The notes under the pieces were generated by a model. The model did not search any database and was not told where the DNA came from. It worked only from the letters and a program-made list of their open reading frames with translations. A stretch of DNA of 35,439 nt from assembly GCA_025936675.1 (NCBI GenBank), contig JAICSX010000021.1, positions 1-35,439 on the forward strand. Reading direction: 5' to 3'. A program made the position numbers and the translations under genes. This document shows positions 12,409-31,438 of this stretch, one piece after another (the stretch's first letter is position 1; each line of letters starts with the position of its first letter). This DNA comes from Sphingomonas sp. Its GTDB lineage: Bacteria > Pseudomonadota > Alphaproteobacteria > Sphingomonadales > Sphingomonadaceae.

Positions 12409-13467
12409 ATGGTTGCCGTCTCGCGCCTCACGCTGACCGACTTCCGCTCTTACGTCTCGACGACCATGGAGCCGCAGCATGGCTTCGTCCTGCTCTCCGG
12501 CGAGAATGGCGCAGGCAAAACCAACCTGCTCGAAGCAGTCTCGATGCTGACGCCGGGACGCGGGCTGCGCGGCGCGGCCCTGTCGGAAATGGCGCGGCAG
12601 GGAGGCAGCGGCGGCTGGGCGGTCGCGGCCAAGCTCGGCGAAACCGACATCGGAACGGGGACACAACCGAATTCTGCCGAACGCCGTCAAGTGCGGGTCA
12701 ATGCGGCGCCCGCGTCGGTCAACTCGCTCAGCGAGTGGCTGTCGGTTCTTTGGCTGACACCCGCGATGGACCGCTTGTTCACCGCCAGCGCGGGCGATCG
12801 CCGCCGATTTCTCGACAGGCTTGTCCTCGCGCTGGAGCCGAGCCATGCGCACCATTCAACGCGTTACGACGCGGCGATGCGCGCCCGAAACAAGCTCCTC
12901 GCCGATGAGCGATGGGACGAGGCCTGGCTCGCCTCGCTGGAGCTGGCGATGGCCGAGCATGGCACCGTGATTGCGGCAGCCCGTGATGGTGCTGTGCAGG
13001 CGCTCGAGCAGCGGCTGGCAGACGCACCGGAAGATGAATTCGCCAGCGCCGCCCTTGCGCTCGAAGGCTGGTCGAGTGGCGAGCTTTCAACCATGCTTGC
13101 TGCAAACCGCGCGCGCGATGCAGCGGCTGGCCGCGCCACCGAAGGACCGCATCGCCAGGATCTCGCGGTTACGCATCGCGCCAAGCAGATGCCGGCGGCC
13201 TTGTCCTCGACCGGCGAGCAGAAGGCCCTGCTGCTCGGCCTCGTACTCGCGCATGCCGAGCTGGTGGCTGAGCGCCGCGGCGCGCCGCCGATCCTGTTGC
13301 TCGACGAAGTCGCCGCGCACCTCGATCCGAAGCGCCGCGCTGCCCTCTTCGCGCGCCTCGAAGGACGCGGGCAGGTGTGGATGACGGCGACGGAAGCCTC
13401 GCTTTTCGACGGAATCGGCTCGGCATCGCGCTTCCATGTCTCGCCAGGAACGGTCGATCCGACTTGA
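12409..13467 (+). CDS. recF: RecF, DNA replication and repair ATPase
   Basis: This 352-residue SMC-like ATPase has its Walker A motif GENGAGKT at about residues 31-38, RecF-type lid sequences ([31 protein letters not shown]), the ABC signature region [14 protein letters not shown] and a Walker B motif [12 protein letters not shown] near the C-terminus. RecF loads RecA at gapped DNA with RecO and RecR. It is arranged in the common dnaN-recF order, probably in one operon, while gyrB lies about 10 kb away rather than adjacent. Confidence 0.95.
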
Positions 13468-13595
13468 GGTGGACTTCTTAAGCATTCGCCCCTATGTTGC
13501 ACCGCAGCACGAGGCGCTTATCAGAAGCGGCGTGAAGGTTCCGAACGGAAGTTCGCGAACAGCCCGCGCCTCGATTTTCTTGCTCTCCCATTCAC

Positions 13596-13642
13596 GCGGG
13601 GCGCTTTTTAGACCCCGCTGGCGCGCGCCTTTTTCGCGCGCC
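13596..13642 (+). promoter_or_regulatory. Two tandem GC hairpins in the helicase leader
   Basis: GCGGGG (13596-13601) pairs with CCCCGC (13613-13618) around an 11-nt loop containing TTTTT. GGCGCGCG (13620-13627) pairs over 8 bp with CGCGCGCC (13635-13642) around a loop CCTTTTT. Both lie 24-70 nt before the helicase ATG, and only a weak TTGGA stands in for a Shine-Dalgarno. They could be a leader control element or a weak terminator for recF. Confidence 0.5.
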
Positions 13643-13665
13643 CGCAAAGTTTGGAATTTTACTCA

Positions 13666-15294
13666 ATGTCATTCATGTCCCTGGGGCTTTCGAAGCCCCT
13701 TCTCGATGCGCTTGCGGCGAAAGATTACGCCGAAGCGACACCGATCCAGCGCCAGGCGATCCCTACGGTCCTAACTGGCCGCGACCTCCTCGGCATCGCC
13801 CAGACGGGCACCGGCAAGACCGCGGCCTTCATGCTGCCCTCGCTCGACCGCCTCGCGGCAGCGAGGAGCTTCGCCAAGCCCGGCCAGGTCCGGATGCTGG
13901 TGCTCGCCCCGACCCGCGAGCTCGCGGCGCAGATCGCCGCGAGCGCGCAAGCCTACGGCAAGTTCATGCACCTCTCCGTCGGAGTCGTCTTCGGCGGCGT
14001 TCCCAACTCGAAGAGCGTTCGCACCGTCGCGCGCGGACTCGACGTGCTCGTCGCGACTCCGGGCCGCCTGCTCGATCTCATCGACCAGCGCGCGCTGAGC
14101 TTGCGCGAGCTCGAGATCCTCGTCCTCGACGAGGCCGACCAGATGCTCGACCTCGGCTTCATCCACGCGTTGAGGCGGATCGTCGCGCTCGTTCCGCCCA
14201 AGCGGCAGACCCTGTTCTTCTCCGCGACCATGCCGCGGGCGATCAAGGAGCTCGCCGACAAGTATCTCACCAATCCCGCCGAAGTCTCGGTCACGCCGGC
14301 GGCGACCACGGTCGAGCGGATCGAGCAGAGCGTCACCCTGGTTAACCAGGCCGAGAAGACGGCGCTGCTGGCGATGATCCTCAAGTCCGAGGCGGTCGAG
14401 CGCGCGCTCGTCTTCAGCCGCACCAAGCAAGGTGCCGACAAGATCGTCCGTCAGCTCGAAGCGGCTGGTATTTCAGCCGGCGCCATCCACGGCAACAAGA
14501 GCCAGGCGCAGCGCGAGCGGGCGATTGCCGCGTTTAAATCGGGCGACATGCCGGTACTCGTCGCGACCGACATTGCCGCGCGCGGGATCGACATCCCGGG
14601 CGTCAGCCATGTCGTGAACTTCGACCTCCCCGACGTTCCCGAGCAATATGTCCACCGCATCGGCCGCACTGCGCGCGCCGGCGCCGGCGGAATCGCGATT
14701 GCGTTTTGCGCTCCCGACGAACGTGGCAACCTCCGCGACATCGAACGCACGACGCGGCAGCGAATTGCTGTCACGCCGTTGCCCGCAGATTTCACGGCAA
14801 CGGCCGAGGTGTTCAAGCGGCTCAAACCCGCCCCGAAGGCCCAGCCGCAGCGGCACGAGCGGACGCATACCAAGGCCGACCGCCGCCACGATGGCCAACG
14901 CCGGAAGAACCGCAACAATGGCCAGCAGCGCCACCCGCAGCGCGGAGACGGCCATCATGCCCATCGTTCCGACGCGCGCGACCACAACGGCCAGCGCCGC
15001 GACGACCAGCGCAATGACGGGGCGCGGTCGCCCTATCGCCCCGAAGCGTACCGCGAGTCAGGGTCTGAGCGTGGCCCGAACCGGCCCGAGGGCGGCCAGC
15101 GTCAGTCGCAGCCAAGCCAGGGCCGTGACGCCTATCGCTCGAAGGGCGGCCAGCCGAAGCGCAAGTTCGGTGGGAGGCGGCCGTCCTGGAGGACACAACC
15201 GCGCTCGGGGGTAAGACGGGCGGCAGGGCGCCAATTACGGCGTTGTGGCCAATGTCTGTTTCCGACCCATTCCGGACATAAGGGCAGCGACTGA
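13666..15294 (+). CDS. DEAD-box ATP-dependent RNA helicase (probable 3' frameshift)
   Basis: All DEAD-box motifs are intact: Q motif PTPIQRQAIP, motif I AQTGTGKT, PTREL, TPGR, DEAD, SAT, VFSRTK, ATDIAARGID and HRIGRTARAG. A long basic His/Gln/Arg-rich tail (from about residue 390) follows and probably contacts RNA. It belongs to the RhlE-like group. The start is ATG 13666 (MSFMSLGLSKPLL); a TTG 15 nt upstream is less likely. The literal frame runs to the TGA at 15292-15294. However, the last 40 residues are Cys-containing and unlike the tail, whereas a one-base deletion near 15172 would give a natural Gly/Arg-rich ending and stop at 15214. Confidence 0.9.
   Translation: MSFMSLGLSKPLLDALAAKDYAEATPIQRQAIPTVLTGRDLLGIAQTGTGKTAAFMLPSLDRLAAARSFAKPGQVRMLVLAPTRELAAQIAASAQAYGKFMHLSVGVVFGGVPNSKSVRTVARGLDVLVATPGRLLDLIDQRALSLRELEILVLDEADQMLDLGFIHALRRIVALVPPKRQTLFFSATMPRAIKELADKYLTNPAEVSVTPAATTVERIEQSVTLVNQAEKTALLAMILKSEAVERALVFSRTKQGADKIVRQLEAAGISAGAIHGNKSQAQRERAIAAFKSGDMPVLVATDIAARGIDIPGVSHVVNFDLPDVPEQYVHRIGRTARAGAGGIAIAFCAPDERGNLRDIERTTRQRIAVTPLPADFTATAEVFKRLKPAPKAQPQRHERTHTKADRRHDGQRRKNRNNGQQRHPQRGDGHHAHRSDARDHNGQRRDDQRNDGARSPYRPEAYRESGSERGPNRPEGGQRQSQPSQGRDAYRSKGGQPKRKFGGRRPSWRTQPRSGVRRAAGRQLRRCGQCLFPTHSGHKGSD
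15165..15214 (+). other. Likely frameshift and true end of the helicase gene
   Basis: Removing one G from the GGG run at 15172-15174 converts the reading to KFGGGGRPGGHNRARG followed by TAA (15212-15214). Such Gly/Arg endings are typical of this helicase group. The unshifted frame instead reads through a dispersed repeat element at 15251-15282. This is either an assembly error or a real mutation. If the gene ends at 15214, bases 15215-15537 (about 320 bp) hold no gene, only the repeat. Confidence 0.6.
15251..15282. repeat. Dispersed intergenic repeat with inverted ends, copy 1
   Basis: The element starts AATGTCTGTTTCCGACCCAT and ends CCGGACATAAG, so ATGTCTG and CCGGACAT form imperfect inverted ends. 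Its first 23 bases match the element at 22320-22342 at 19 of 23 positions. Similar TGTCCGC...GGACATT remnants are scattered in intergenic DNA of alphaproteobacteria (recalled, not searched). The rest of 15283-15537 shows no recognisable feature. Confidence 0.5.
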
Positions 15295-16493: not shown

Positions 16494-16775
16494 CTACGCC
16501 CTCGGTGTCATTTGCTTGAGTAAGGCTTCGACACGGGCCAACCCCTCGTCGCTCTCGATTGCGAGATGGAGCGGCTGACCTTCCACTACGGCGTGCGGAG
16601 TGTTCAGGAATGCAATCACCGGACCCGGTTCACCAAAGTGACGCCATGCCGATTGCACGACGCTAGCCTGGCGCCGCGATTCCTCGGGTGTGGGGAGTGC
16701 AATCCTGCTGTACTTGCGAAATGCCATGCCGCGGCGCGCAGCCGGCTTGGCCTCTGGCGCATGCGGCGTGCTCAT
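16494..16775 (-). CDS. MbcA/ParS/Xre-type toxin-binding domain protein (orphan antitoxin-like)
   Basis: This 93-residue protein's C-terminal half (about 43-90) fits the DUF2384 pattern of MbcA/ParS/Xre antitoxins: AWRHFGEPGPVIAFLNTPHA, then GQPLHLAIESDEGLARVEALL. That domain normally binds a RES-family toxin. The N-terminus (PTPEESRRQASVVQSAW) is helical and too short for a full Xre HTH. No RES-domain or other toxin gene is nearby, so it is either an orphan or works with the unknown neighbours. A GGAG lies 8 nt before the ATG, which overlaps the upstream stop as ATGA. Confidence 0.6.
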   Translation of the reverse strand: MSTPHAPEAKPAARRGMAFRKYSRIALPTPEESRRQASVVQSAWRHFGEPGPVIAFLNTPHAVVEGQPLHLAIESDEGLARVEALLKQMTPRA

Positions 16776-16930
16776 CGGGCGCGCTCCAACAGGGCGGCTC
16801 GGGTTCGCAAAATCTGGTCAGCATATTCTCTGGCGAACTGCTCATGCGCTCGCCTGTCCCGCAATGACATCGCGCGTTCCGCAATCAACGATGGAAAGGG
16901 CTGCGTTTGCACCGGCGGAATGCGATCCAT
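16772..16930 (-). CDS. Small hypothetical protein, 52 residues
   Basis: This is the first gene of the minus-strand cluster. It is preceded by GGGAG at 8 nt from the ATG, and its TGA overlaps the ATG of the MbcA-like gene (ATGA). The product runs MDRIPPVQTQPFPSLIAERA then a highly charged helix RDRRAHEQFAREYADQIL. No family is recognised. Strong initiation signals plus exact overlap make it a credible gene. The 130 bp on its upstream side (16931-17060) contain no other gene, and I could not identify a clear promoter there. Confidence 0.6.
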   Translation of the reverse strand: MDRIPPVQTQPFPSLIAERAMSLRDRRAHEQFAREYADQILRTRAALLERAR

Positions 16931-17060
16931 GATTTAGTCTCCCATTTCTGTAAGCGGGAGCGCCTCATGTCTCTCGGCCGCTGGCGCCTACGAGTTCAGA
17001 TGGCCAGCGATGCTTCCTACATGGGAACGCAGATGCAAATTACTAGGCCGCTGATGGAGC

Positions 17061-17156
17061 TCAGGAGAAGGCGAGGCCCAGCGCGGATCCTACGACGATG
17101 ACGGTGAGGATGAACGGCACGAACGACCGCCATCTTGGCTGAACTGTGTCTTCCAT
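17061..17156 (-). CDS. Putative 31-residue single-span membrane protein
   Basis: A short frame encodes MEDTVQPRWRSFVPFILTVI followed by VVGSALGLAFS. This is an N-terminal charged segment (basic just before the helix) and then one clear hydrophobic helix of about 19 residues. AAGGG lies 8 nt before the ATG, a good Shine-Dalgarno. It is downstream of csp1 on the same strand with a 129-bp gap that contains a GC-rich inverted repeat after the csp1 stop. The function is unknown. Small size limits confidence. Confidence 0.45.
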   Translation of the reverse strand: MEDTVQPRWRSFVPFILTVIVVGSALGLAFS

Positions 17157-17285
17157 GGAGTCTGCCCTTCTGGCCAATGAGTATCGGCTCACCCGGACGG
17201 CGAGGGCCGAGGCCACTCAGCCGCCATCCGGGATCGGCCCCGAACGCGTTACAGGACAGGCGGAAGCGAGGCTCCCGCCGGCCGG

Positions 17286-17495
17286 TTAGATCGTCTGAAG
17301 GTTGAGCGCGCAGGGCACGCGTTCGCTGTTCTGCCCGACATCATAGCTGAGGCGCTGACCGACCGTCGGGGCAACATTCTTGTCCCACTGGATCCCGCTC
17401 GTTTCGAAAGGAAGGTCATTCCCGCCGGCTTCCTGCTTGATTTCGCCGTGGCCCTTGATCGTGTCGAACGACTTGACGGTTCCAAAATATTTCAT
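17286..17495 (-). CDS. Divergent CspA-family cold shock protein (csp1)
   Basis: The 69-residue product has one cold-shock OB fold: MKYFGTVKSFDTIKGHGEIK, then GQRLSYDVGQNSERVPCALNLQTI. The RNA-binding motifs are degenerate. RNP-1 is KGHGEIK instead of KGFGFI, and the RNP-2 position reads LPFE instead of VFVH, so several stacking aromatics are absent. It may bind a different ligand or act as a structural paralogue. SD AAGGA precedes the ATG. The leader is about 108 nt and begins with the shared element described at 17571-17603. Confidence 0.82.
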   Translation of the reverse strand: MKYFGTVKSFDTIKGHGEIKQEAGGNDLPFETSGIQWDKNVAPTVGQRLSYDVGQNSERVPCALNLQTI

Positions 17496-17570
17496 GGTGT
17501 GTTCCTTGGTTCGCAGAGCCGGAATGGCCGCTGCCGCTAGGAGACGTGAAGGATGGGCATAGGAGCGACT

Positions 17571-17603
17571 TAGCGCCAAGGACCGTCGATTGCGACTGGT
17601 AGC
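17571..17603 (-). promoter_or_regulatory. Shared cold-box-like leader element, csp1 copy
   Basis: On the minus strand it reads GCTACCAG-TCGC, 3 nt, CGACGGT, 4 nt, GGCGCT. It starts 7 nt downstream of the -10 box, so it should be the very 5' end of the csp1 mRNA. Matching copies precede csp2 and the IF-1 gene. A second block shared with csp2 lies nearer the start codon (17523-17543 here, 19308-19331 for csp2). Confidence 0.7.
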
Positions 17604-17610
17604 CCGCAAA

Positions 17611-17639
17611 CAGATAGGCCAATATTCGCCGATGTGCAA
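17611..17639 (-). promoter_or_regulatory. csp1 promoter
   Basis: On the minus strand, TTGCAC (17639-17634), 17 nt, TATCTG (17616-17611). The csp2 promoter has the same architecture and spacing. An upstream TTATTTTCCA tract is also shared between the two, which points to common ancestry of the whole promoter. Confidence 0.6.
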
Positions 17640-17707
17640 TGATCGTGGAAAATAAAACTGAAAATATGAAAATATAAATCCAGACTCCCTCATAGTAATC
17701 AGCAGAT

Positions 17708-17731
17708 TTCATCCCATCTAGGATGGATGAA
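17708..17731 (+). promoter_or_regulatory. Inverted repeat before the 72-residue gene
   Basis: TTCATC-C-CATC / GATG-GATGAA around a TAG loop gives a 10-bp stem with one bulge. It ends 9 nt before the Shine-Dalgarno AAAGGAGG. It could be an operator or a leader hairpin. The flanking DNA (17640-17700) is notably AT-rich. Confidence 0.4.
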
Positions 17732-17754
17732 GTGAATAAAGGAGGAGAAGCGCC

Positions 17755-17973
17755 ATGTTTGGGTTTACTAGTGCAGATAGTTCTGAAACCGTCGCCCGCA
17801 AGAAAGTTCACATGGCTGAAGCGCGAGAGCGCTGGCCCTTCCTGACCCACTTCGACGCATCCACGATCAAGAACGAGCGCCAGCTTGAGACCATGGTGAA
17901 GGAACGGTGCTCGCGATCGCAAGAGGATGCCGAGGCTGACGTGCGCGAGTGGATGCAGAACAAGGAGTTCTGA
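17755..17973 (+). CDS. Small hypothetical protein, 72 residues
   Basis: A very strong Shine-Dalgarno (AAAGGAGGAG) precedes the ATG. The protein is mostly helical and charged: ARKKVHMAEARERWPFLTHF, then RQLETMVKERCSRSQEDAEA and the end DVREWMQNKEF. I recognise no named family; the W-P and terminal WM-x-x-K-x-F features recur in small stress-associated ORFans of sphingomonads, from memory. It is divergent from csp1 across 259 bp and leads a three-gene cluster. Confidence 0.7.
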   Translation: MFGFTSADSSETVARKKVHMAEARERWPFLTHFDASTIKNERQLETMVKERCSRSQEDAEADVREWMQNKEF

Positions 17974-18272
17974 TAATCTCCGAATATCGGGAGCCCGGGC
18001 GTGCTTCGCCAAATGCCGTTCCCACCGAAGGGCCAAGCGCTCATATTGTGCGGTGTTGGCACGAGTGGGAGTTCGACGGTTCGGATCGGCGCATAATCCT
18101 CTGCCTGGAAACGACACTGGAGTTGAGGCCGGGCGCCGAAGGCTTCGATCCACTTCTGCTCGACGAGCTGATTGCGGAAGCGACGGATTTGATGCGCGCA
18201 AGTGTCAGTCCGATCAATTCCATACGGATCGTTCCGCAATCGGTCCCGACAAGCGATAGGACGCAGCGTTAG
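17949..18272 (+). CDS. Hypothetical protein, 107 residues
   Basis: The only in-frame ATG overlaps the previous gene by 25 nt; a GTG at the Val in HIVRCWHEW is a later alternative. The protein has a coherent alpha/beta pattern: HEWEFDGSDRRIILCLETTL, then FDPLLLDELIAEATDLMRAS and INSIRIVPQS. Two competing frames here (plus 17927 and minus 17808) have implausible composition. The next gene starts directly after its TAG. The function is unknown. Confidence 0.6.
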   Translation: MDAEQGVLIISEYREPGRASPNAVPTEGPSAHIVRCWHEWEFDGSDRRIILCLETTLELRPGAEGFDPLLLDELIAEATDLMRASVSPINSIRIVPQSVPTSDRTQR

Positions 18273-18545
18273 GTGCCCAGGGTCAATCTGACAGTCCTCG
18301 AGCCTGGTGCGTTGCCGACTGACGATCGAGGTGAAGATTGGGGTGAGTGGGATTTCACATCATTACCCCAAGCCGGAGATCACATTGAAATGGAACGCAA
18401 CGACCGGAAGGAGACATTGCAGGTCCGGCGAGTAATCCACTTTGCAGCGCAGCACCCGCTTCCGCGATCGGAAACGCCGTATCGGCAGCGCAAGCAACCT
18501 TCCATTCGCATCATTGCGCTAAGAGTCATTGCAGACGAGGTTTGA
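18273..18545 (+). CDS. Hypothetical protein, 90 residues
   Basis: The start codon is GTG immediately adjacent to the previous stop (0-nt gap). The product is beta-rich: VNLTVLEPGALPTDDRGEDW, GDHIEMERNDRKETLQVRRVIHFA and a terminal SIRIIALRVI strand, suggesting a small barrel-like domain. It has no signal peptide or membrane helix. The tight linkage indicates cotranscription with the two genes upstream. The function is unknown. Bases 18546-18689 downstream contain nothing I can name. Confidence 0.6.
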   Translation: MPRVNLTVLEPGALPTDDRGEDWGEWDFTSLPQAGDHIEMERNDRKETLQVRRVIHFAAQHPLPRSETPYRQRKQPSIRIIALRVIADEV

Positions 18546-18689
18546 CCAGGGCGCGACCGATCGTTGAGCCAACCTGTACGGCGCGATAGGTTGTTGTAAC
18601 TGCTTCCGGGTAGATACGTGAACTGACCTTAGTCCATCATTTCGAGCACGGCAGCGTATGCCACCTTGTCGAACGGTCGAAAGCACTGT

Positions 18690-18983
18690 TCAGATTCGCG
18701 GCGTTCGGCGCTCGCACGTAGGGAAGCCCATTTGGGCTGGTTCTTCTTGAATATCATCTTCATTTGAAATCGATGCGGCTTCAGCCGCTTTCCTCTTTTG
18801 ATCTTCGATGCGCAGCCGTTCGCCGCGCTGGGCCTTATCCGCGAGAACGGACCAGGCAGCTTCGGACCGGCGGCAACGCTCGCGCACATGGTGGAGCGTT
18901 GCCGCTTCCGCCTCAACCCGCGCTTGTTCAGCGCGGGCGAGGAAGAATTGCAGATTTGAGCTGCGGACGATCGGCCCTGCCAA
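18690..18983 (-). CDS. Small helical hypothetical protein, 97 residues
   Basis: The start is TTG, 2 nt after the csp2 stop, with no in-frame ATG before the C-terminal part. The product is a long charged helix: SSNLQFFLARAEQARVEAEA, then TLHHVRERCRRSEAAW and LADKAQRGERLRIEDQKRKA. It appears to be cotranslated with csp2. I recognise it only as a sphingomonad-type ORFan. An overlapping frame (18629-18916) is rejected for composition. Confidence 0.6.
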   Translation of the reverse strand: MAGPIVRSSNLQFFLARAEQARVEAEAATLHHVRERCRRSEAAWSVLADKAQRGERLRIEDQKRKAAEAASISNEDDIQEEPAQMGFPTCERRTPRI

Positions 18984-18985
18984 GG

Positions 18986-19279
18986 CTATTCGCCCTGTTG
19001 GTCATTCGCCGGCTCGGATTGCAGTTCGTCGGTCGCGGGCTGAGCTTCGCTCGCCTCCGGCTGAGTGGACTCTTCGGCGTTCTTGAGATTTACCGCGCTC
19101 ATCTTGCCGCGATTGTCTTGCTCGATGTCGTAGCTGATGCGCTGGTTCTCGCGGAGGCTGCGCATTCCAGCCCGCTCGACGGCGGTAACGTGAACAAAGG
19201 CGTCATTGCCGCCGCCATCGGGTGCGATGAAGCCGTAGCCTTTGGATTCATTGAAGAACTTTACGGTTCCGGTAGTCAT
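18986..19279 (-). CDS. CspA-family cold shock protein with acidic tail (csp2)
   Basis: This 97-residue protein has a canonical cold-shock domain at residues 1-67: TTGTVKFFNESKGYGFIAPD (RNP-1 KGYGFI), AFVHVTAVE (RNP-2 FVHV) and NQRISYDIEQ. An acidic Glu/Gln/Pro/Ala-rich tail of about 30 residues (AEESTQPEASEAQPATDELQ) follows, which single-domain Csps usually lack. It should bind single-stranded RNA/DNA and act as an RNA chaperone. SD AGAAGGA precedes the ATG. The roughly 113-nt leader starts with the shared element. A helical ORFan follows 2 nt after its stop. Confidence 0.9.
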   Translation of the reverse strand: MTTGTVKFFNESKGYGFIAPDGGGNDAFVHVTAVERAGMRSLRENQRISYDIEQDNRGKMSAVNLKNAEESTQPEASEAQPATDELQSEPANDQQGE

Positions 19280-19357
19280 TTGGATTTCCTTCTAAGGCGA
19301 GGCCGCAAATCGGCCCGCTTCCTGCTAGGAGCGAAAAGAGAAGGAAAAGGAGCCGCA

Positions 19358-19392
19358 AAGCGCCCGAATACCGTCAGTTTGCGACTAGTAGC
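19358..19392 (-). promoter_or_regulatory. Shared cold-box-like leader element, csp2 copy
   Basis: On the minus strand: GCTACTAG-TCGC, 4 nt, TGACGGT, 5 nt, GGCGCTT. It begins 7 nt after the -10 box, exactly as in csp1. In this copy GTCGCAAA can pair with the TTTGCGGC just downstream over 8 bp (one G-U), enclosing the TGACGGT core in the loop. Confidence 0.7.
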
Positions 19393-19399
19393 AGCGCTA

Positions 19400-19428
19400 T
19401 ACATAGGCGCATTCCCAAATAATTGTAA
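19400..19428 (-). promoter_or_regulatory. csp2 promoter
   Basis: On the minus strand, TTACAA (19428-19423), 17 nt, TATGTA (19405-19400). Same spacing and same distance to the leader element as the csp1 promoter; TTATTTTCCA lies upstream in both. Confidence 0.6.
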
Positions 19429-19567
19429 GTCATCATGGAAAATAATCTTGGCGCTAGGTAAAATCATTCCATTGTGATAAGCTTAGTCATCGCGTGGATT
19501 TTCTTGCCGTAGGCCCACCCGACTGAGAGACCGAACGCGCTCCCGCTTACGAAGATGGGAGCGTTCC

Positions 19568-19729
19568 ATGGATCTCAATTATCTCTATCGGCGACATCAA
19601 ATTTCGCTGTTCATGGCGGAGAACGGGTCTACCGAACAGGTTCGCCGGACGCACGGCGAGTTTGCTGAACTCTATGCTGCGCGCATCGCCGACGCGAGGC
19701 AGTGGCACACGCTGTTGCGAGCCGCATGA
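19568..19729 (+). CDS. Micro-gene 1, 53-residue hypothetical protein
   Basis: This is the first of six overlapping small genes. GGGAG lies 6 nt before the ATG. The product is MDLNYLYRRHQISLFMAENG, then a helix ending ELYAARIADARQWHTLLRAA. The opening D-L-N-Y-L-Y-R-R-H-Q looks conserved among sphingomonad small proteins (memory, not searched). Its TGA overlaps the next ATG (ATGATG). No promoter of a recognised class is evident in 19430-19567, which it shares with the divergent csp2. Confidence 0.65.
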   Translation: MDLNYLYRRHQISLFMAENGSTEQVRRTHGEFAELYAARIADARQWHTLLRAA

Positions 19730-19902
19730 TGCAACAGCCATCACGCTCCGAAGCGGCGGATGAGCTTCGCGAGCAGGCCGCGTCGTGCCGAAGGCTTGCG
19801 CGACGAGCGCGGACTAATGGTGGGTCCTCGGCGCTCAAGACTGTCGCCGAGCAATTCGATGACGACGCACGGCGTATCGACCCGTTCAGCGAAAGGCGAT
19901 GA
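19726..19902 (+). CDS. Micro-gene 2, 58-residue hypothetical protein
   Basis: It starts within an ATGA overlap with micro-gene 1. The product contains AADELREQAASCRRLARRA and ALKTVAEQFDDDARRID. The pattern LRxQAxxCRRLAxxA...A-L-x-x-x-A-x-x-(F/Y) is common in small soluble alphaproteobacterial proteins of unknown role. It is probably two helices. Its stop overlaps micro-gene 3 as ATGA. Confidence 0.65.
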   Translation: MMQQPSRSEAADELREQAASCRRLARRARTNGGSSALKTVAEQFDDDARRIDPFSERR

Positions 19903-20057
19903 GCATCATGCCAGGAACCAATAGCGACGCAGTGCCGCAGTCAGAGCTTGATCGTTACGGGATAGAGCGCGTGCCCGCCGTAGTCTTCCTTTGGGGTGGT
20001 TATCGCTACTCCAACGCACGCGACGCGATCGCCGCCGCAAAGCGGAACGCCAAATGA
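19899..20057 (+). CDS. Micro-gene 3, 52-residue hypothetical protein
   Basis: It starts at the ATGA overlap with micro-gene 2 and ends at the ATGA overlap with micro-gene 4. The product has a polar N-terminus and then a compact motif LDRYGIERVPAVVFLWGGYR followed by YSNARDAIAAAKRNAK. This reads as a strand-turn-helix unit with conserved-looking Trp-Gly-Gly-Tyr-Arg-Tyr. The function is unknown. It was found by direct translation of the junctions. Confidence 0.6.
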   Translation: MSIMPGTNSDAVPQSELDRYGIERVPAVVFLWGGYRYSNARDAIAAAKRNAK

Positions 20058-20302
20058 GTTCGTCACGGCGAAAGCCAGAGGATTCAGTCGACGGATGCCG
20101 AGCTTTGGCGGCCTCGGACCGCGAGCGCGCATCAACGGCCGCCAACGGCCATGTCCGTGCCACGTTCGAACGCAGCGCCGAGGCGTGGAGCGCCAGGGCA
20201 AGTTTGCTTGACGGTCTTGAAACCAGCTTCGACGCGCGCGTCGCGAGCCTGACGCCGCGGACGAGGAAGCACCGCGCAACCGAAGACAGACAAAATGGCT
20301 AA
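20054..20302 (+). CDS. Micro-gene 4, 82-residue hypothetical protein
   Basis: ATG 20054 is chosen because it overlaps the preceding TGA; the frame is open further upstream but that part overlaps micro-gene 3. The product is helical: DGCRALAASDRERASTAANG, then HVRATFERSAEAWSARASLL, ending in a basic tail. I recognise no family. It overlaps the next gene by 8 nt. Confidence 0.62.
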   Translation: MSSSRRKPEDSVDGCRALAASDRERASTAANGHVRATFERSAEAWSARASLLDGLETSFDARVASLTPRTRKHRATEDRQNG

Positions 20303-20417
20303 AGGACAGAAGCGCTCGAACAAGGAGGCGCGCAAGCCGAAGGCGAAGGCGAAGACTCCGAAGAATTCAAACGCCTCTCAACCATCCAGAAAATTGCTCG
20401 GGATTCGCGGCTCATGA
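20295..20417 (+). CDS. Micro-gene 5, 40-residue Lys-rich protein
   Basis: The product MAKGQKRSNKEARKPKAKAK then a short Ser/Pro-containing tail is strongly basic. Proteins beginning MAKGQxRSNxE with Lys/Pro repeats are frequent small ORFans in Alphaproteobacteria (memory). A nucleic-acid- or ribosome-associated role is possible but unproven. It starts 8 nt inside micro-gene 4 and ends in an ATGA overlap with micro-gene 6. Confidence 0.6.
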   Translation: MAKGQKRSNKEARKPKAKAKTPKNSNASQPSRKLLGIRGS

Positions 20418-20650
20418 AGATCGAAGGAAGCATCCGCTCCAATCTCATCTCGGCCATCACCAGCGTGCGGCGCTGGCAGGGTCGTCCGGTGCACAAGGAT
20501 ACGCTCAACTATTGGCATGCGGTTCTCGACCAAGGCCGTCGAGTTGAAACAGGCCCGTTGGGCGAGCCTGTGGCCGATTTGGTCGCGCAACTCGAAATTG
20601 AGTTGGCCCTGGTCCGCAAAGACCGGGCAATAGCATCGCGTTCCCATTGA
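20414..20650 (+). CDS. Micro-gene 6, 78-residue hypothetical protein
   Basis: This is the last member of the chain; ATG 20414 overlaps the previous TGA. The product KIEGSIRSNLISAITSVRRW, then VHKDTLNYWHAVLDQGRR and ETGPLGEPVADLVAQLEIELAL is well-formed alpha-helical protein with conserved-looking Trp/Tyr/His. No family name is known to me. No terminator is seen before the IF-1 leader. Confidence 0.65.
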   Translation: MKIEGSIRSNLISAITSVRRWQGRPVHKDTLNYWHAVLDQGRRVETGPLGEPVADLVAQLEIELALVRKDRAIASRSH

Positions 20651-20692
20651 TTTGAAATATCTTTCCACCCGGGACATGCGTAACGACTACTA

Positions 20693-20725
20693 GCTACCAG
20701 CCGCTATTGACGGTTTCAGGCGCTT
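20693..20725 (+). promoter_or_regulatory. Shared cold-box-like leader element, IF-1 copy
   Basis: GCTACCAG-CCGC, 3 nt, TGACGGT, 4 nt, GGCGCTT. Block order and spacing are the same as the csp1 copy, and the distance to the IF-1 ATG (115 nt) is close to the 108 and 113 nt seen for csp1 and csp2. The promoter is less clear: TAACGA (20681-20686) is the candidate -10, without a good -35. Confidence 0.65.
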
Positions 20726-20807
20726 CCCGCGCTCTCTCCCTCCGTATCGCCAGCTAGCCACGAGCTGTCCGCTAAAGGGCGTCTCGGCCAACGAGGAGAA
20801 TGCGCCA

Positions 20808-21071
20808 ATGGCTAAAGAAGAGCTGCTCACCATCGAAGGGGTGGTCGACGAGATACTGCCGGACGGGCGCTTCGGCGTCATGCTCGACAATGACTGCCGA
20901 ATCATCGCCTATACCGCCGGGAAGATGCGCCGTTACCGGATCCGCTCGATCGTCGGCGACCGCGTTCACGTGGAAATGACGCCATACGATTTGTCCAAGG
21001 GACGGATCGTCTACCGCGAAAAGATCGGAGGGCCATCTGCAGGCCCACGGCGACGGAATTTTCGCCGGTGA
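20808..21071 (+). CDS. infA: Translation initiation factor IF-1, paralogue with basic tail
   Basis: This 87-residue OB-fold protein starts with the IF-1 signature [20 protein letters not shown] and continues [36 protein letters not shown]. Canonical IF-1 is about 72 residues; this one has an extra basic tail ([14 protein letters not shown]) and several core substitutions ([10 protein letters not shown] for the usual VLAHTSGK). It is therefore probably a second, specialised copy. IF-1 binds the 30S A site. A GAGGAG precedes the ATG. The leader carries the element shared with csp1 and csp2, and the desaturase gene overlaps its stop. Confidence 0.88.
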
Positions 21072-22159
21072 CACCGCTTCGATCCACTGTCGCCCTTGAG
21101 TCGATAGGCGATATGCCCAGCTTCGCCGCCAAGTCCGAATTCTGGACCGAGTTGCGGATTCGTGGCAGCGAATATCTCGCATCGCAGGGCCGGCCGTCGA
21201 CGGGAGATCCGCGTGCGTTAAGGCAAGCGGCGGTGATCCTGCTGTGGTTCGCTCTTTCGTACGGCGCATTGCTCTGCGCCACGAGCCTCGGTTTCGCTCT
21301 GCTCGCAGCTTTCTCCTGCGCTTTCGCCGCCGCTGCCGTCGGCTTTGGCGTTTTTCACGACGCCAATCATGGCACATTGTTTCGCCGGTCCGAAGGCAAC
21401 GTTCTGGCTGCGAGATTATGTTCGATACTGCTCGGGCCTTCGCGCCATTTGTGGGTTCGCAAGCATGGCTATCATCACCGCCACGCCAACGTCTTCGGGT
21501 GGGATGACGATCTCGAGACGCGCGGACTCCTTCGATTGTCCCCCGCTTATGCCTGGCAACCTCGCTTTCGACGCCAGGAGCTGAAGGCAATTCTCTACTA
21601 CGGCCTGAACACGATGGAATGGGTCTTCTGGAAAGACTTCCGCTCCGTCGCGAAGGGTCGGCTAAACAAGTGGCACCCTCTGAAACTGGACAGGGAGCAA
21701 GAAATCGAGTTCGTCATTTGCAAGGCACTCTATCTGATCCTCCTTTTTCTCCCGCCCTTCATCATGTTGCCGTTCTGGTGGGCAATCGCGGCGTTTATCC
21801 TGTTTCACCTGGTTTTCGGCTGGGTGCTGGCCGCCGTCTTCCAGGTTGCGCATCTCACGCCGGGCATGGGGTTCGACGGCGTTCGCGCCGGTGACGACTG
21901 GGCAATGCATCAGGTCCGCACTAGCGCGAATTTCGCGACGCATTCGCGGTTCATCACCTGGTTTACCGCCGGACTAAACCACCAGCTCGAACATCATCTT
22001 TTTCCGAATGTGGCGCACACACATTATTCGGGCCTGCGGCCGATCGTCCGCGCCGTCGCACAACGTCATGGATTGGAATGCCACGAACTGGGCAGCTTAC
22101 CGTCTGCTGTCGGTCAGCATTTTGCACTGCTCAAGAGTCTCGGTACCGTGACCCTATGA
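21068..22159 (+). CDS. Membrane fatty acid desaturase
   Basis: The GTG start overlaps the IF-1 stop (GTGA), giving 363 residues; ATG 21113 would drop 15 residues. The three His boxes of membrane di-iron desaturases are present: HDANH (97-101), HGYHH (133-137) and QLEHH (306-310). Hydrophobic segments lie at about 52-95 and 217-262. This matches the acyl-lipid/acyl-CoA front-end desaturase group. It inserts double bonds into membrane acyl chains, classically raising fluidity in the cold. Translational coupling to an IF-1 whose leader matches those of two csp genes strongly suggests cold induction. Confidence 0.9.
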
Positions 22160-30664: not shown

Positions 30665-31438
30665 ATGGGTTTCGATAGAGGGCGCAAGGGGGACCGCGGT
30701 GGCCGCGGCCGCGATAAGCGCGACAGTTTCGGCGGCGACGAGGGCAATTTCGGCGATCTCGGCTATCAAGAACGCGGCGGCTTCGGCGGTCGTGGTGGCG
30801 GTGCCGGTGGCGGTTACGGCGATCGCGGCGGCTTCGGCGGCGGTGGTGGCAATTTTGGTGATCGCGGCGGCTTCGGTGGCGGCGGCGGCGGATTCCGCGG
30901 CGGCGGTGGCGGCGGTGGTTTTCGCGGCGGCGGCGGTGGCGGAATGCCTCCCCAGGTCGTCGGCGAAGGCAAGGGCGTCGTCAAATTCTTCAACCCGCAA
31001 AAGGGCTTCGGCTTCATCGTCCGCGATGACGGTGGTGAGGACGTGTTCGTCCACATCTCGGCGGTCGAGCAGGCCGGGCTGACCGACCTCGCGGACGGCC
31101 AGCCGCTCGAGTTCACGCTGGTCGATCGCGGCGGGCGGATCTCGGCGACCAACCTCCGAATCGAAGGCGAGCCTATGGCGGTTGAGCGCGCCGAGCGCGG
31201 CCCGCAGCGTCAGCTGACCGGCGAGAAGGCCAGCGGCACGGTCAAGTTCTTCAACGCGATGAAGGGTTTCGGCTTCATCCAGCGCGATGACGGACAGCCC
31301 GATGCCTTCGTTCACATCTCTGCTGTCGAGCGTGCGGGAATGCCGACGCTCAACGAGGGCGACCGGCTCGAGTTCGAGCTCGAGGTCGACCGCCGCGGCA
31401 AATATGCGGCAGTGAACCTGCAGCCGAAGAGCGAATAG
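30665..31438 (+). CDS. Double cold-shock-domain protein with RGG/Gly-rich N-terminus
   Basis: The start is placed at ATG 30665 (MGFDRGRKGDRGGRGRDKRD). The frame is open back to GTG 30575 but that stretch looks non-coding. The product is 257 residues: an Arg/Gly/Phe-rich disordered region (1-92, with repeated GDRGGFGGGG), CSD1 (about 100-162, KGVVKFFNPQKGFGFIVRDD and DVFVHISAVE) and CSD2 (about 189-252, GTVKFFNAMKGFGFIQRDD and DAFVHISAVE). Both CSDs keep intact RNP-1 and RNP-2. It is probably an RNA chaperone. The Shine-Dalgarno is weak. TACAAT at 30520-30525 is a possible -10 without a good -35. Confidence 0.88.
   Translation: MGFDRGRKGDRGGRGRDKRDSFGGDEGNFGDLGYQERGGFGGRGGGAGGGYGDRGGFGGGGGNFGDRGGFGGGGGGFRGGGGGGGFRGGGGGGMPPQVVGEGKGVVKFFNPQKGFGFIVRDDGGEDVFVHISAVEQAGLTDLADGQPLEFTLVDRGGRISATNLRIEGEPMAVERAERGPQRQLTGEKASGTVKFFNAMKGFGFIQRDDGQPDAFVHISAVERAGMPTLNEGDRLEFELEVDRRGKYAAVNLQPKSE

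Follow-up and report, generated by a model that had tools for sequence, protein, structure and literature searches.

We analysed a 35,439-nucleotide stretch of Sphingomonas sp. DNA (GenBank assembly GCA_025936675.1, contig JAICSX010000021.1), hereafter the window, in which one sequence element stands in front of two genes for cold-shock-domain proteins, csp1 and csp2, and in front of infA, a gene for an IF-1 paralogue. The pattern GCTACYAGNCGC-N2..6-YGACGGT matches the window exactly three times (17582-17603 and 19370-19392 on the minus strand, 20693-20714 on the plus strand), and none of 100 dinucleotide shuffles of the window contains it. GGCGCT follows downstream in all three copies. A first-pass annotation of this DNA had claimed such a motif for csp1, csp2 and infA at distances of 108, 113 and 115 nt, respectively, from element start to start codon, and both the motif and the distances were borne out. 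Its limits for the copies were correct except at the 3' end, which was placed one base too far in each; the true ends are 17572, 19359 and 20724. The promoters that it had described for the csp genes were also recovered, as promoter-like boxes directly before the element (TTGCAC-N17-TATCTG-7 nt and TTACAA-N17-TATGTA-7 nt), with the csp genes directly downstream of the leaders. A generic promoter scan flagged neither of these two promoters. On the predicted folds, the element is the 5' end of a structured leader of ~110 nt.

The distribution of the element was followed in the order Sphingomonadales and is expressed here by taxonomic rank only. The exact pattern gave 35 matches in 30 of 296 Sphingomonadales genomes and the reversed pattern gave 8, and a csp gene lay 110-133 nt downstream at 28 of the 30 loci examined. 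The two exceptions were L139, which looks like a chance match, and L133. At L133 (1501-1620; L253 is identical in sequence), the gene behind a complete type A leader is not csp but a small lipoprotein-like gene (MTRLQALAVAAVYTFALGGC...). Upstream of 80 IF-1 loci, taken from a longer list, a regular-expression search gave no convincing match; reading those sequences revealed the variant type B (GCTNACGTCGC..GCGACGG) and also the copies linked to csp. Among the IF-1 loci listed, those of Sphingomonas (L001), Qipengyuania (L021) and Altererythrobacter (L026) carry the same element ahead of csp, and other Sphingomonadales have related forms ahead of csp, csp-infA and infA. The type B pattern matched 47 times in 40 of the 296 genomes (7 matches for its control); csp or IF-1 follows at 22 of the 30 loci examined, and the other eight, with neither gene, are false positives. 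At two loci (L145 and L149), csp is seemingly reduced to a short open frame (MPFGT...) between the leader and infA, with the leader and the IF-1 gene kept.

A covariance model, R1, was built from 27 of 37 type A leaders, and the remaining ten, including the infA leader of the window, were left out for alignability. In the window, R1 recovered the two csp leaders (Table 1) and also the held-out infA leader at 40.4 bits, and the next best match had an E-value of 0.13. The element is absent from the leader of the helicase gene (13440-13700), and its occurrence before helicase or free-standing desaturase genes, which the annotation had envisaged, was not observed in the window. In the family, R1 gave 30 matches in 24 of 149 genomes, of which 28 were called csp; on re-reading, the remaining two proved to be csp loci as well, L197 with a gene and L185 with a pseudogene. 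The L185 leader thus stands before a csp frame with early stops. In the nearest genus, 83 matches were found in 47 of 61 genomes, with up to six per genome. Six of these had been classified in the family set and one (L340, cut by the contig end) was left unclassified; for 73 of the other 76, csp is the gene immediately downstream, and its start codon is 104-133 nt from the element start, except for L297, whose leader is cut at the 5' end. The three non-csp matches were L253 (the lipoprotein-like gene), L305 at 71 and L324, and the latter two may be damaged csp starts. These R1 counts include some training members.

When the search was started from the genes, the motif of the first helix (P1, described below; at most one substitution) was found 110-165 nt upstream of 23 of 34 cold-shock-domain frames in 19 genomes, where ~2.6 would be expected from the background of 0.077 per 260 nt; this set holds frames shorter than 140 aa, and proteins with two domains fall outside it, as does at least one csp gene whose frame is longer. 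Enrichment before other csp and infA genes, which the annotation had named beforehand as the check on its proposal, was thus seen in the pattern, model and gene-first searches, and csp leaders dominate the covariance-model scan that it had suggested. Its sphingomonad leader can be upheld as a conserved 5' leader common to csp genes and an IF-1 paralogue. The term "local" regulon has to be given up, as the element is widespread in the genus and has variant forms elsewhere in the order. The IF-1 paralogue itself was found at >80% identity in only two of the 61 genus genomes (G001 and G398). In G398, the leader, a csp gene and the IF-1 paralogue occur together (L308), probably on a plasmid.

Downstream of the element, a conserved pyrimidine tract is complementary to the Shine-Dalgarno (SD) sequence, and this pairing is referred to as P3. 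Its flanks differ between lineages, and a change on one strand is matched on the other, as in the strand pairs CCUUCAGUUU/AAACUGAAGG, CUUUCACG/CGUGAAAG, CCUUUGUCCC/GGGAUAAAGG and UUCUUUCCAUUUCGC/GCGAAAUCGAAGGAA. The duplex of the SD with upstream sequence was more stable in native than in swapped combinations, both for 37 type A leaders (-16.6 vs -14.6; 0/10,000) and for 55 leaders of several types (-13.0 vs -11.0 kcal/mol; 0/5000), a set that includes three leaders judged spurious (L083, L110 and L057) and excludes IF-1-only leaders other than that of the window. Outside the SD core, the flanks paired better than in swapped or slid controls. With a 5-nt core, 101 of 195 flank pairs were formed in 39 leaders, compared to 79.5 in the control (0/5000), or 96 compared to 81.5 (21/5000) under the other tie rule. 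The flank test covered 39 of 52 leaders with a 5-nt core and 51 with a 4-nt core, the three spurious ones being excluded; an earlier blind anchoring had misplaced several leaders (left tie rule 30/5000).

In an alignment of 101 distinct leaders (A5, 99 chosen sources), which was fitted to the modelled structure and thereby favours pairing, 91.1% of cells pair, and 57 cells are changed on both sides, compared to 10.7 after shuffling (0/500) and 5-23 in slid controls. Double-sided changes occur in 7/7 P3 pairs and in 4/4 modelled pairs of the second 5' helix, P2. RNAalifold on the first type A alignment gave a poor structure, with the SD columns misaligned, and trimming at the SD helped. In single-sequence folding, the SD core was paired at >0.5 with nt 40-70 in 86 of 104 leaders and with any partner in 93; its unpaired probability at 30°C was 0.14, compared to 0.33 with mononucleotide-shuffled upstream sequence. 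As modelled, the leader thus carries the conserved and co-changing SD complement of a translational leader that sequesters its SD.

A second pairing, P0, competes with P3. The 5'-terminal GCUA is complementary to a UAGC just past the anti-SD strand, with 97.8% of cells paired, A-U in place of G-C in two leaders (L178 and L304) and several wobbles. P0 crosses P3; the nested forms are mutually exclusive, and a pseudoknot is possible. In 66 of 71 non-redundant leaders, the probability of P0 at 30°C was 0.81 in the isolated 5' domain, which represents the leader before its SD has been transcribed, compared to 0.45 with a shuffled interior, and dropped to 0.09 in the full leader. The predicted best fold of the infA leader changes from P0 at 10°C to the SD-sequestered form at 30°C, and those of csp1 and csp2 have the SD sequestered at both temperatures. 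Of the 5' helices, P1 (ACC.A.GUCG-N4-CGAC.GGU) is nearly invariant in sequence across leaders, and P2 varies with compensation (GAGGGC..GCCCUC, GCUUCC..GGAAGC). In the first of two fold classes (51 of 104 leaders), the predicted probabilities are 0.55 for P1 and 0.53 for P2.

The features of the three leaders and of the genes behind them are collected in Table 1. The csp2 leader is predicted to form P3 with a probability of 1.0. The GTG start of the desaturase gene overlaps the infA stop (GTGA), so both genes are possibly on one mRNA, with the leader serving both. Relatives of this desaturase at E-values up to 1e-10 were absent among open reading frames of at least 100 aa in L001-L080. The csp1 protein is a member of a large and divergent group, with 746 relatives of which 120 were listed, in which the RNA-binding motifs look altered (KGHGEI and LPFE; those usual for cold-shock domains are KGFGFI and VFVH). 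A further cold-shock-domain frame at 30943 on the plus strand (MPPQVVGEGKGVVKFFN...) has a glycine-rich coding sequence before it and lacks the leader.

Table 1. Leader features and genes at the csp2, csp1 and infA loci of the window (MFE, minimum free energy fold).
Feature	Positions	Strand	Evidence or remark
csp2 leader, whole, 113 nt	19280..19392	minus	R1 match 76.1 bits over 19285-19392
csp2 P1 sequence (ACU.A.GUCG/..GACGGU), conserved in leader alignments	19370..19389	minus	probably not the fold in csp2
csp2 P2 region, contains GGCGCT	19349..19364	minus	P2 not predicted in csp2-like leaders
csp2 anti-SD tract UUUCCUUCU, P3 5' strand	19339..19347	minus	pairs with AGAAGGAAA (duplex, MFE)
csp2 UAGC, complement of 5'-terminal GCUA (P0)	19324..19327	minus	
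csp2 P4, GC-rich hairpin between anti-SD and SD	19297..19318	minus	MFE
csp2 SD AGAAGGAAA, P3 3' strand	19285..19293	minus	duplex, MFE
csp2, cold-shock domain protein, 97 aa	18986..19279	minus	PF00313 75.1 bits
csp1 leader, whole, 108 nt	17496..17603	minus	R1 match 72.7 bits over 17501-17603
csp1 P1 hairpin (ACC.A.GUCG-CAAU-CGAC-GGU)	17582..17600	minus	MFE; P1 probability 1.0
csp1 anti-SD UCCUU, short, consensus position	17549..17553	minus	consensus P3 probability 0.0
csp1 SD AAGGA	17503..17507	minus	
csp1, divergent cold-shock-domain protein, 69 aa	17286..17495	minus	PF00313 25.4 bits, below the 27-bit cut-off
infA leader, whole, 115 nt	20693..20807	plus	R1 match 40.4 bits over 20693-20799; copy outside training set
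infA P1 sequence, one mismatched pair (AGCCGC for AGTCGC)	20696..20714	plus	P1 probability 0.0
infA anti-SD UCUCC, pairs with SD GGAGA	20735..20739	plus	duplex
infA SD GGAGA	20795..20799	plus	duplex
IF-1 paralogue, 87 aa	20808..21071	plus	PF01176 70.6 bits
Fatty acid desaturase, GTG start	21068..22159	plus	PF00487 109.1 bits

From the computed conservation, the gene linkage, the place after promoter-like boxes, the SD complementarity with its co-changing flanks and the competition between P0 and P3, we infer, with a probability of roughly 0.6, an mRNA leader that acts in cis to control how the csp genes, and here also the IF-1 paralogue with the desaturase gene behind it, are translated, through a two-state switch with a temperature signal and Csp feedback. 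Because P0 and P3 are mutually exclusive when nested, the leader could be either ON (P0) or OFF (P3). In the full-length leader, the SD would be held by the conserved pyrimidine tract in P3 around the GC-rich hairpin P4, which would be the OFF state. In the nascent leader, the 5'-terminal GCUA would pair with the UAGC beyond the anti-SD tract and leave the SD free, which would be the ON state; P0 would then close a 5' domain comprising the anti-SD tract together with the helices at the 5' end, which are P1 and P2 except in csp2-like leaders, where another helix takes their place. Cold-slowed transcription and refolding may favour ON, and Csp bound to the pyrimidine tract may do so as well and provide the feedback.

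A more tentative extension, which we consider possible but would not bet on, is that the mRNA begins with a four-nucleotide anti-sequestor that works during transcription and keeps the leader ON while cold slows refolding, in a leader family that no Rfam 15 model matched in the regions scanned. The leader would in the same extension be a portable cassette, present in up to six copies per genome and placed before csp paralogues, before the IF-1 paralogue with the desaturase and before an unrelated lipoprotein-like gene. For the switch in general, csp and IF-1 would by analogy be sensible joint targets in sphingomonads, since IF1 and CspA, along with IF3, rise in the cold in E. coli according to PMC9947658 and PMC6511846.

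A number of results weigh against the proposed two-state switch. Predicted SD exposure was flat from 10 to 45°C (0.13-0.15); therefore, equilibrium folding gives no cold switch, and any response to cold would have to come from folding kinetics or from a protein. Shuffled columns paired almost as often as native P0 (97.3 vs 97.8% of cells) because the P0 bases hardly vary, and the covariation of P0 was modest, with 6 of 500 shuffles reaching its score and 100 of 500 its count of double-changed pairs. In types B and C, P0 was weak (0.47 vs 0.30 in 21 leaders, with leaders >140 nt excluded and four more lacking a candidate site). As for P3, the native partner had a median rank of 11th of 54 in the swap test and came first in one leader, with csp1 last; a reversed-SD control also showed a small native excess (-11.7 vs -11.25); the flank excess was weaker with the 4-nt core (26 and 114 of 5000; 51 leaders); and a perfect 5-nt SD complement was absent in 13 of 52 leaders, including infA of the window. 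In the MFE of csp1, the SD is paired with UCCUUGG at 17576-17582, just after P1, and not with the consensus anti-SD. The infA leader has a mismatched P1, a consensus P3 probability of only 0.43 and no promoter at the csp spacing, the annotation having claimed none there.

The 5' helices add a further difficulty. In the second, csp2-like fold class (53 of 104 leaders, with TTGCGG in the P2 region), P1 and P2 were predicted at only 0.05 and 0.01, and the helix predicted in their place, at 0.93, joins AGUCGCAAA to UUUGCGGCU (19351-19389 on the minus strand in the window). Covariation of this alternative helix above shuffles was not found. The copies in the window differ accordingly: csp2 has the alternative helix (0.99, with UUUGCGGCU at 19351-19359) and a P1 probability of 0.01, csp1 falls into the first class, and infA into neither. 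The 5' element may have two uses, or its conserved sequence may serve a protein.

The latter possibility leads to the strongest competitor of the switch, to which we assign somewhat less than even odds. The leader would be under autogenous protein control without a temperature switch, and Csp or S1 would bind the tract and the 5' element and tune translation or decay. The conserved tract is indeed pyrimidine-rich, and the 5' element keeps its sequence even in leaders that are not predicted to form P1, as would be expected of a binding site for a protein. PMC9947658 describes CspA as preferring single-stranded RNA and cites the suggestion that it acts on its own mRNA, although it also states that stable cspA regions are not unwound by CspA binding. 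Protein binding alone, however, does not explain the co-changing SD flanks or the GCUA/UAGC match.

We consider it unlikely that the leader serves mRNA stability alone, with a 5' structure that blocks decay and an SD complementarity that is a by-product of pyrimidine-rich sequence. The conserved element directly after the promoter-like boxes would suit such a role, but the flank pairing outside the SD core, which exceeded that of both the swapped and the slid controls, speaks against it. A DNA element in the initially transcribed region, an operator or promoter-escape signal bound by a regulator, appears more improbable still; strong sequence conservation and a nearly fixed distance from the -10-like box are compatible with it, whereas compensatory changes in P2 and P3 and the link to a distant downstream SD are features of RNA. 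Least probable is a heat-melting RNA thermometer of the ROSE or fourU type, with an SD helix that opens on warming, as the widespread pairing of the SD core would allow, because predicted SD accessibility does not respond to temperature, the genes are of cold-shock type, and no Rfam thermometer family reached its gathering score in the regions scanned, which were 16500-21500 of the window and the csp leaders of 12 further loci.

The leader was compared with known systems. No Rfam 15 family matched at threshold at 16500-21500 or at the csp leaders of the 12 loci, and at E-values up to 10 the former region gave sub-threshold matches alone. One of these was CcsR1 (24.3 bits, 18865-18949 minus). 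The cspA thermoregulator family, RF01766, matched at csp2 (19163-19413 minus) with 15.2 bits (E=1), compared to its gathering score of 78; it had no match listed at the other two leaders of the window and none at the csp leaders of the 12 loci. Conversely, R1 at E-values up to 1 had no match in cspA of E. coli MG1655 or in nine non-sphingomonad loci. Among the literature matches listed, no title or abstract start described a sphingomonad leader of this kind, in a coverage from which subscription journals are mostly absent.

The enterobacterial cold box is UGACGUACAGA, which is present in MG1655 cspA. The annotation had read the element as its counterpart. The two resemble each other in their place near the 5' end of csp mRNAs and in YGACG, but this is all that the copies share with UGACGUACAGA; the rest of the 11-nt box is missing from the sphingomonad element. 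Together with the failure of R1 to find E. coli cspA, this does not favour the cold-box reading. ROSE and fourU elements likewise hold the SD in a cis helix, but they melt on heating, whereas here a competing 5' pairing is proposed and the predicted accessibility is flat.

The best-studied control of csp translation by mRNA structure is, to our knowledge, that of E. coli cspA. On the features tested, the sphingomonad leader resembles that of cspA in outline and appears to lie outside the RF01766 family. Both are long 5' leaders of csp genes. An SD complement (CCTTTAA/TTAAAGG) is also visible in MG1655, although the duplex program preferred another site there. The cspA leader has two conformers, one of which hides the SD: as described in PMC9947658 and PMC6511846, transcription in the cold lets the mRNA take an active form with the SD exposed, and the closed form hides the SD and the AUG. 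In the sphingomonad leader, two competing folds are predicted, with no temperature dependence at equilibrium. This leader is shorter than that of cspA (104-133 nt) and may use its 5'-terminal bases as an anti-sequestor, and no common sequence was found between the two. An additional IF-1 gene is linked to csp by sharing this leader, as perhaps is a desaturase gene; R1 provides a searchable model for the sphingomonad csp regulon, and the competing pairings are short enough to be tested with few mutants. A leader of similar layout and unrelated sequence in an order of Alphaproteobacteria would lend independent support to the logic of cspA.

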